Source: Candidatus Methylumidiphilus alinenensis | Lineage (GTDB): Bacteria; Pseudomonadota; Gammaproteobacteria; Methylococcales; Methylococcaceae | Direction of reading: 5' to 3' | Length of the DNA stretch: 64,000 bases | Assembly (NCBI GenBank): GCA_003242955.1 | Contig: QJPH01000533.1 | Location: forward strand, 1 to 64,000 | Part shown: piece by piece, positions 31,145 through 32,704 of the stretch | Numbering within the stretch: position 1 is the first letter of the stretch | Layout: each line of letters starts with the position of its first letter | Position numbers and translations under genes: made by a program | The notes under the pieces: generated by a model | The model's input: the letters and a program-made list of their open reading frames with translations, nothing else | Database searches by the model: none | What the model was told of the DNA's origin: nothing

Positions 31145-32704
31145 ATGGTCAATATCAACCAAGATCATTGGACCACTAGCCGCTGGGAGCAAGAAATCCG
31201 TGTTCGACTCGGCGAGGCGACTGATGGCCAAGCCCCGCTCGTCAATATCAATGCCGACGACACCAGGGAGTTTGATGCAATCTTCCTAGGCGGCGGCGCG
31301 GGAGGGCGTTTCGGCGCGGCGTACCTGCGCGCTATGGGTGGCCGCCCCCTTATCATTGACCGCTGGCCGTTCTTAGGGGGTTCATGTCCGCACCATGCCT
31401 GCGTCCCGCACCATGTCTTTTCCGATGTCGCCGCACAGTTGATGTTGGAGCGGACGTTTTCCGGCAGACTGTGGTTTCAGGATATGCAAGGCAAGATGGT
31501 TTCCATTAGGGAGATTGTCGAGATGTTCCGGCGAGGACGCACCGGCCCCCATGCCTTTATGAACTTCCAGAGCAAGGAGCAACTCGATTTGGAATTCGTC
31601 CTAGGTTCACGCGCACGGATTGTGGATGCACATACGCTTGCCGTCGGCGGTCAGATTTACCATGCCAACAACCTAGTTCTATCGACAGGTGCCAGCCCGA
31701 AACCTTTTACAATTGACACGCAAGGAATGGAAGGCGTGTTTAACTACGCCAGCTTGGTCGATACCCTTGAATATGAACCTGGCCCTACCGTCGTAGTCGT
31801 CGGTGGCGGCAAGACCGCCATTGAGTACGGCTGCTTTTTCAACGCCACGGGCCGACGTACCATCATCGTTTCGCGGCATCAGCCGTTGACTATGATTAAC
31901 GATGCAGAAACCCGCGCCTACCTGCTCGAACGCATGGCAGAACAAGGCATGGAATTTTGGGCCAACGCCGAATTGACTGCCATCGAAGGTGACGGGCGGG
32001 TCAACGCCGTGGCGATTCGCACGATCAGCGGCGGAATCAAGAAAGTCGAGACCGATTTCGTATTCCTAGGACTGGGCGAACGGCCCAATTCCCAAGAAGC
32101 GCAGGAGACGCTTGGAGTGGAGGTGGACACTAATGGCGCGGTCAAGGTCGATACCCGCATGCAAACCTCGATTCCTAATGTGTATGCGGTCGGCGATCTG
32201 GTTGGTTCGCCGATGGAGATGTTCAAGGCCCGCAAGGGCGGAATGTACGCGGCACGCAATATCATGGGCGAAGAAGCCCATTACCATTTCAAAAAATATC
32301 CCGACTTCATGCACACCCATTATGAAGTTTGCTGGCTGGGACTTGGCGAGGAGCAAGCCCGTGAACGATACCGAAATGTCGTAGTGCTCAAACTGCCGCC
32401 CGACAATCCTGACGGCCAGTCGGTCGCTCTCCCGGCTGGTGACAGGATGATGCTGTATGTGATGATGAAGCCGCATCTTTCTGGTTTCCAGAAACTGGTT
32501 ATCGACGGGGATACTCGGCGGATCGTTGGTGCATTCCATGTTGGTTGTGGGGCCAAAGACGGATTCCAATACCTGGCGCCCATGGTGCGCAACGGATTGA
32601 CGGTGGACGAACTCGGTGAGATGGACGAGTTGTTCCTGAATCCATCCTATTTCATCCAGCTTTGCCGCTTGCGGGCTGGCAGCAAGGTCTTACGGGGGAT
32701 GTAG
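31145..32704 (+). CDS. 2-Ketopropyl-CoM oxidoreductase/carboxylase-like flavin disulfide oxidoreductase
   Basis: The product is a 519-residue FAD/NAD(P)H disulfide oxidoreductase. The redox-active pair is Cys81 and Cys86 ([13 protein letters not shown]), in the same register as Cys82/Cys87 of Xanthobacter 2-KPCC. FAD motif [11 protein letters not shown], the phrases [14 protein letters not shown] and [10 protein letters not shown], and the ELFLNP C-terminus closely match my recollection of KPCC and not of mercuric or lipoamide reductases. 2-KPCC reductively cleaves the C-S bond of ketopropyl-CoM, with Phe501 and His506 replacing the usual His-Glu dyad. Here Phe497 is kept, but the residue I align with His506 is Tyr502 (NPSYF). 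That suggests altered chemistry, possibly protonating rather than carboxylating. It follows the zinc-ribbon gene by 4 bases. Confidence 0.8.

Follow-up and report, generated by a model that had tools for sequence, protein, structure and literature searches.

To our knowledge, 2-KPCC is the only disulfide oxidoreductase that carboxylates. Phe501 of this enzyme stands in for the proton-donating histidine that is usual for the family, and the Phe–His pair that it forms with His506 distinguishes 2-KPCC and is regarded as key to the exclusion of protons from the enolate. We take His84, His137, Met140, Arg56, Arg365, and Gln509 to be additional functional residues, with His84 and His137 being important for the enolate.

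Homologs of 2-KPCC (KPCC homologs) also appear in gene clusters outside Xanthobacter. A CoM-dependent cluster for epoxyethane detoxification was reported in 2024 for Methylohalobius crimeensis and for ∼10% of methanotroph genomes (PMC11507031). According to the available portions of that paper, 11 of 13 cluster proteins, the KPCC homolog among them, rise after ethylene exposure, and acetyl-CoA is predicted as the end product; the paper also states that the later steps of bacterial alkene routes have been confirmed only partly even in model strains. The same portions name the KPCC homolog only as a pyruvate/2-oxoglutarate dehydrogenase component, allot a SauS-like dehydrogenase to CoM biosynthesis, and contain no mention of residue 506 in the main text. 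For the ethene/vinyl chloride route, the accessible text of another report proposes that a KPCC homolog turns 2-ketoethyl-CoM into malonate semialdehyde (PMC8727900).

The locus described here resides in a 64,000-nucleotide stretch of DNA from Candidatus Methylumidiphilus alinenensis (contig QJPH01000533.1), which we call the window. Both the enzyme family and the type of cluster to which its KPCC homolog belongs are known; the homolog is a variant that carries Tyr at the position of His506.

Tyrosine replaces His506 in a 2-KPCC homolog

The open reading frame at positions 31145–32704 (plus strand) starts with ATG and encodes a protein of 519 amino acids. When compared with PDB chains by phmmer, its closest solved relative is the 2-KPCC of Xanthobacter autotrophicus (1mo9, E 1.1e-212, residues 3–516 aligned), and the protein is 59%–60% identical to the two Py2 copies (60% to Xanthobacter XecC). 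This homology is full length and includes the disulfide-oxidoreductase fold and the CxxxxC redox pair, with Cys81 and Cys86 corresponding to Cys82 and Cys87 of 2-KPCC in the homolog alignment. All six of the additional functional residues listed above are conserved as well.

The C-terminal stretch of the protein aligns without a gap to FLNPTHFIQLSRLRAG of 1mo9, which includes FLNPTHFIQL. In 7mgo, a PDB entry titled as the 'F501H variant' of 2-KPCC, the chain departs from 1mo9 where Phe497 aligns; that of 7mgn ('F501H/H506E variant') does so both there and where Tyr502 aligns. Therefore, Phe497 is equivalent to Phe501 and Tyr502 is equivalent to His506. The TAT codon of Tyr502 is located at 32648–32650 (plus strand). 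The initial annotation had identified the protein as a KPCC homolog, had paired the cysteines in the same manner, and had placed Phe497 and Tyr502 at Phe501 and His506; these assignments all hold, and Tyr502 does fall at His506 when XecC and the actinobacterial homologs are aligned. The protein thus retains Phe in place of the catalytic histidine of the family but lacks the His of the Phe–His pair. Because of Tyr502, we class it as a Tyr506 variant of the family and not as 2-KPCC proper.

A structure predicted from 13 aligned sequences (the window protein and 12 homologs) has 7mgn, 7mgo, and 1mo9 as its best-ranked chains (Z 26–27). However, confidence in the model is low (mean pLDDT 59.3, and below 50 for residues 487–519), and for this reason it was not used to assess the geometry of Tyr502. 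The active site of 2-KPCC is at a dimer interface, which a monomer model would not display.

Genes surrounding the KPCC homolog

The gene is part of a plus-strand cluster arranged in the order EaCoMT, KPCC homolog, SDR (short-chain dehydrogenase), CoA-transferase-like pair, XcbA-family protein, phosphosulfolactate synthase, XcbC, XcbD, and GMC-family oxidoreductase. The epoxyalkane:CoM transferase (EaCoMT/EtnE; 29584–30876) is MetE-like; 88% of the ORF aligns with the Xanthobacter protein, at 78% identity. Its true start, as estimated from where homologs begin, is probably ∼29767. The SDR, the next gene after the KPCC homolog (32720–33484), is of the S-hydroxypropyl-CoM dehydrogenase type. CoM biosynthesis is represented by the XcbA-family protein (35269–36183; NF052538, 482.4 bits, cut-off 150), a phosphosulfolactate synthase of the ComA/XcbB type (36107–37054; TIGR03849, 299.5 bits, cut-off 280), XcbC (37041–38543; NF052535, 721.7 bits, cut-off 575), and XcbD (39570–40931; NF052536, 689.5 bits, cut-off 600). 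XcbE, a PLP enzyme of CoM biosynthesis that is present in many related clusters, was observed neither in the window nor in L009, where the contig extends only a short way beyond the cluster. The GMC-family oxidoreductase (40928–42514) is present in many of these clusters.

A SauS-like acylating aldehyde dehydrogenase is encoded divergently upstream (28084–29499, minus strand). Its score of 529.5 bits is below the 600-bit cut-off of the NCBIfam equivalog model for SauS acylating sulfoacetaldehyde dehydrogenase, and among its top PDB matches are AdhE and acetylating dehydrogenases for acetaldehyde and succinate semialdehyde. This enzyme seems more likely to serve as an acylating dehydrogenase in the epoxide route than to take part in CoM biosynthesis.

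The CoA-transferase-like pair consists of subunits A (33454–34410, plus strand) and B (34340–35248, plus strand; motif VAGATYG), both matching the glutaconate-CoA-transferase family. The nearest PDB entries are 5mzw/5n00 and kin ('Glutaconate CoA-transferase family'), which we take to be AibA/AibB, a decarboxylase. The AibB cysteine varied in entries 5n00–5n03, presumably Cys56, is not kept in subunit B; the Ala or Gly of VAGATY is aligned there, with a gap that shifts by one between alignments. A decarboxylase role for the pair is therefore a guess. All 23 rows compared, which represent 20 distinct genes, have the GATY motif of subunit B, as VAGATY or IAGATY in proteobacteria and as VEGATY in NBB4. 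At the place of the putative catalytic Glu, as judged against a GctB motif, the proteobacterial genes have Ala and NBB4 has Glu, and thus the proteobacterial pair may not be CoA-transferases.

Several other genes were observed in the window. Two genes between XcbC and XcbD (38625–39453), one small and antitoxin-like (phd family, TIGR01552) and the other of the DUF3368 type, resemble a toxin–antitoxin pair inserted into the CoM biosynthesis operon. Of three adjoining genes at 19779–25337, one encodes a 1022-amino-acid protein that matches no Pfam family at 1e-5, another a protein that weakly matches the metallo-beta-lactamase fold, and the third a peptidase of the clostripain family. The region just downstream from the cluster (43520–63990) carries one methyltransferase-like gene, one P450-like gene, and a 5643-amino-acid NRPS-like ORF on the minus strand, all named by eye.

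Comparison with described clusters

Like the window, Xanthobacter carries EaCoMT and CoM biosynthesis genes near its 2-KPCC gene, and its enzyme shares the redox cysteines, Phe501, and the other residues noted above. The window differs in having Tyr for His506 and in that no R-type SDR was found near the gene; its cluster adds the acylating aldehyde dehydrogenase, the CoA-transferase-like pair, and the GMC oxidoreductase. The CoA-transferase-like and SauS-like genes are absent from both Py2 clusters, and the SauS-like gene is also absent from that plasmid.

The M. crimeensis cluster, as far as it is described in the available portions of PMC11507031, has EtnE, an SDR, a CoA-transferase pair, a sulfoacetaldehyde-dehydrogenase-like gene, CoM biosynthesis genes, and a KPCC homolog in common with the window, whereas the gene order in this and other methanotroph clusters is different. 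Genome G296 is very probably that of M. crimeensis, and its KPCC homolog (L036, L053) has Tyr506. Thus, earlier work had already covered the cluster, what it probably does, and how a Tyr-type enzyme responds to ethylene; the residue change is not mentioned in those portions of the paper. They also report that a MEDS-domain regulator occurs in no methanotroph cluster except that of M. crimeensis (PMC11507031). We observed such a gene beside EaCoMT in G877, a genome with pmoA (L074:13088–13873), and a similar one alongside the G1622 cluster.

In Nocardioides JS614 and Mycolicibacterium NBB4, the clusters for ethene/vinyl chloride resemble the window in carrying a KPCC homolog, a SauS-like dehydrogenase, and CoM biosynthesis genes, and NBB4 also has a CoA-transferase pair. 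In contrast to the window, their KPCC homologs (46%–53% identity) keep His506 and an R-type SDR is present. The SauS-like gene adjoins the KPCC homolog in NBB4 and is near it in JS614. Genome G1640 has pmoA, EaCoMT, the CoA-transferase-like pair, the GMC gene, CoM genes, and a SauS-like dehydrogenase, yet its KPCC homolog has His506. The presence of His506 in JS614, NBB4, and G1640 indicates that a C2 pathway can do without Tyr. A different arrangement was observed in G159, in which contig C22 (L044, L077, L078) carries a Tyr-type KPCC homolog and an S-type SDR with no other cluster gene in ∼39 kb, and a SauS-like dehydrogenase is on another contig.

Distribution and recurrent origin of Tyr506

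Homologs were collected from a scan of genome contigs (12 loci from 27 candidate stretches), from the order to which the window belongs (17 of 311 genomes), from phylum, class, and alphaproteobacterial samples, and from plasmids (four records); the NBB4 and Py2 plasmids contributed one additional copy each. After identical sequences were merged, 31 distinct homologs remained. The gene was found in one of 398 genomes in the phylum sample and one of 369 in the class sample, with both matches being the genome of the window itself. It was found in two of 397 genomes from the order of G708, seven of 199 from the family of G708, and one of 30 from the family of G877.

Residue 506 is Tyr in 21 of the 31 homologs and His in 10. 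The Tyr506 set consists of all 17 matches from the order search, which are Methylococcales judging by named relatives, and four genomes from the family of a Methylocystis MAG, the MAG included. His506 is found in the two Py2 copies, Nocardioides JS614, three NBB4 copies, G1640, G1622, G877, and a USC-alpha MAG. Cys82, Cys87, Phe501, His84, His137, Met140, Arg56, Arg365, and Gln509 are invariant in all 31.

A pmoA gene is present in 17 of 18 genomes tested, including all 14 of the Tyr genomes (from a total of 21) in this test. The exception, G1622, has His506 and a soluble di-iron monooxygenase. Because some genomes that carry pmoA likewise have His506 (G1640, G877, and, as a fragmentary match, G709), Tyr does not mark methanotrophy in itself. 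No mention of a residue 506 change in methanotrophs was found in the literature searched, which is thin on 2-KPCC enzymology, and this does not prove that the change is unpublished.

The codons at position 506 are TAT or TAC for Tyr and CAC or CAT for His, and a single transition (CAY to TAY) connects the two. The dN/dS values of the window gene, 0.067 relative to L009 and 0.081 relative to G159, indicate that purifying selection maintains the protein. A maximum-likelihood tree inferred after removal of the columns around the trait requires three changes at residue 506, and at least two of these are forced by well-supported branches. A single Tyr clade is rejected (p-AU 2.9e-5). The Methylocystis-type Tyr clade (four members) is nested in a six-row group with His members (support 100/99), whereas G296 sits on a long branch with weak support for its placement. 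Within each Tyr lineage the residue is uniform (21 of 21 rows). The Tyr506 substitution is real and of recurrent origin.

A change of Met419 to Leu or Ile tracks the replacement of His506 by Tyr perfectly in the 31 rows. As a control, we considered the 35 ways of choosing three of seven lineages, which yield 0 to 4 perfectly separating columns; the Tyr split has two (506 and 419). Additional columns of this sort turn up for many splits chosen arbitrarily, and therefore we do not rely on this coupling.

Short-chain dehydrogenases beside the gene

XecD and XecE were recognized via PDB entries 2cfc and 4gh5, respectively. The SDR at 32720–33484 has 4gh5 as its best PDB match (E 7.2e-68, vs. 6.9e-39 for the R-type 2cfc). 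It is thus closer to XecE than to XecD, and it lacks Arg152 and Arg196 of XecD. We take Arg211 and Lys214 to be the sulfonate-binding residues of XecE.

An SDR of the S-hydroxypropyl-CoM dehydrogenase type adjoins the KPCC homolog in all 21 Tyr loci, two of which carry two such genes. No R-type SDR was found at any of these 21 loci within the flanking DNA examined, which for two of them is ∼2 kb or less on either side. Across Tyr and His loci together, the flanks extend ∼9–10 kb to both sides in most cases, are <2.1 kb on both sides for Tyr loci L010 and L018, and are short on one side for several others, including the His locus of USC-alpha. In contrast, an R-type SDR is near each of the 10 His506 genes. 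Nine SDR genes account for this result because two NBB4 copies share one, which lies 9 kb away from one of them. Arg152 and Arg196 of XecD are kept in all nine. Some His loci (USC-alpha, G1640, NBB4_c) have the R-type SDR alone, and therefore a single SDR by itself does not go with Tyr.

The simplest reading of this pattern is that propylene was dropped by the Tyr clusters and a C2 substrate is served. It suggests that these clusters no longer handle both enantiomers of hydroxypropyl-CoM and are specialized on an achiral C2 substrate from ethylene oxide. An alternative explanation for the association is the joint transfer of neighboring genes. The distribution of R-type SDRs is matched by one of the 35 ways of choosing three of seven lineages. 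An independent-pair test of Tyr against the absence of an R-type SDR yields two pairs for which the branches are supported. Each of the two points the expected way, but with two pairs such a tree-based test is too small to reach significance.

Two other correlates of Tyr506 were considered. A division into ethylene and propylene clusters was ruled out since His506 occurs in G1640 (CoA-transferase-like, SauS-like, and GMC genes), JS614, and NBB4. The presence of a CoA-transferase is a weaker correlate than the absence of an R-type SDR; in this scoring, NBB4_c was counted as lacking the gene despite an annotated CoA-transferase at the edge of L040, and USC-alpha was counted likewise, though its contig is short.

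Possible reactions of the Tyr506 enzyme

The homology, the residues, the gene context, the recurrent Tyr, and its association with the absence of an R-type SDR are observed features, from which we infer the substrate, the order of reactions, and the product. The window protein is probably a CoM-releasing enzyme that acts on a C2 substrate. That it does so with carboxylation kept is our working proposal, which we hold tentatively. Ethylene would be co-oxidized to epoxyethane by pMMO, which would be the source of ethylene oxide because pmoA is present in G000 and no SDIMO hydroxylase match was found in this genome. EaCoMT would add CoM to epoxyethane to give 2-hydroxyethyl-CoM, and the S-type SDR would convert this compound to 2-oxoethyl-CoM. 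The window enzyme, reduced by NADPH via FAD and Cys81/Cys86, would then attack the thioether sulfur and free CoM, leaving an acetaldehyde-type enolate that would combine with CO2 to form malonate semialdehyde. The SauS-like acylating dehydrogenase would make malonyl-CoA, which would later be decarboxylated to acetyl-CoA. Malonate semialdehyde is the carboxylate analog of sulfoacetaldehyde, which by analogy may suit a SauS-like enzyme to this step. Under this scheme, Tyr506 would be part of an adaptation to the C2 pathway and not a switch that ends carboxylation. The published proposal for the ethene/vinyl chloride route likewise runs through malonate semialdehyde, but it differs from this scheme in that, according to the accessible text, a CoA-transferase acts on malonate (PMC8727900).

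Some observations argue against this scheme. The change from His506 to Tyr alters the Phe–His pair, and proton control could be affected. In G159, the KPCC homolog and SDR stand apart from other cluster genes. Furthermore, no SauS-like dehydrogenase was detected at E 1e-60 in the Methylocystis-type Tyr genomes G708, G1596, G1619, and G1561, which means that this enzyme cannot account for a malonyl-CoA step in every Tyr genome.

The initial annotation had proposed that loss of the histidine could stop carboxylation. A CoM-dependent C2 (ethylene oxide) setting agrees with the neighboring genes, among which are EaCoMT, an acylating aldehyde dehydrogenase, genes for CoM biosynthesis, and no SDR other than the S-type one, but the causal step finds no support: His506 is kept in JS614, NBB4, and G1640, and Phe501 and the six additional functional residues are unchanged in all homologs. 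Protonation in place of carboxylation, which would make the protein a reductive CoM-releasing enzyme giving acetaldehyde or acetyl-CoA, is a possibility that we regard with some doubt. Acetaldehyde could be formed and then converted to acetyl-CoA by the acylating dehydrogenase, which could accept acetaldehyde given its PDB matches, or the dehydrogenase could act earlier, with acetyl-CoA arising from a CoM-acetyl-CoA thioester. Such a reaction would be in keeping with a real and recurrent substitution that is seen only where no R-type SDR was found, and that affects a residue which, together with Phe501, sets 2-KPCC apart. It would also accord with the available portions of reports that tie such clusters to ethylene oxide (PMC11507031; PMC6440738) and with the acetyl-CoA end product predicted by the M. 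crimeensis authors (PMC11507031). However, clusters of this kind go with His506 in the ethene-pathway actinobacteria and in G1640. A CoA-thioester substrate would be far bigger than the known substrate, and the alignment has no insertion that would make room for it. Phe501, the proton-excluding residue, is kept in every homolog collected. The neighboring genes fit either protonation or carboxylation to malonate semialdehyde, and the kept Phe501 and two enolate histidines, which a protonating enzyme would not need, lean slightly to carboxylation.

Two further explanations leave the chemistry of 2-KPCC as it is. The protein could be an ordinary 2-KPCC that tolerates Tyr and converts 2-ketopropyl-CoM to acetoacetate to detoxify propylene oxide. 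Its conserved catalytic residues and 60% identity to XecC would be expected in this case, and pMMO oxidizes propylene as well. We nevertheless consider this very improbable, since one enantiomer of hydroxypropyl-CoM would remain at the 21 Tyr loci, where no R-type SDR was found beside the gene, and since the CoA-transferase-like and SauS-like genes lie outside both Py2 clusters. It is also improbable, if slightly less so, that Tyr506 is neutral or structurally compensated (for example, by Met419 to Leu or Ile), with the SDR association reflecting joint transfer. One transition suffices for the change, two perfectly separating columns are not unusual in the 35-split control, and the independent-pair test cannot reach significance. 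Yet the uniformity of Tyr in every lineage that has it, the rejection of a single origin, and the lack of an R-type SDR in the DNA examined for every Tyr lineage are not what a neutral change would predict.

Implications for the 2-KPCC family

The Tyr506 change is real, recurrent, and situated in a sensible pathway, and its functional effect is a prediction from sequence. It is rather unlikely, in our estimation, that at least two independent changes from Phe–His to Phe–Tyr have turned a CO2-fixing disulfide oxidoreductase of methanotrophs into a protonating, CoM-releasing reductase for the C2 unit of ethylene oxide. If this were true, these enzymes would be natural experiments on how a single residue governs whether an enolate takes up CO2 or a proton. 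A natural and recurrent Phe–Tyr version offers a direct test of the Phe–His idea, with no guessing about which mutants fold. The product of a Tyr506 enzyme would settle whether CO2 is taken up along the alkene route.
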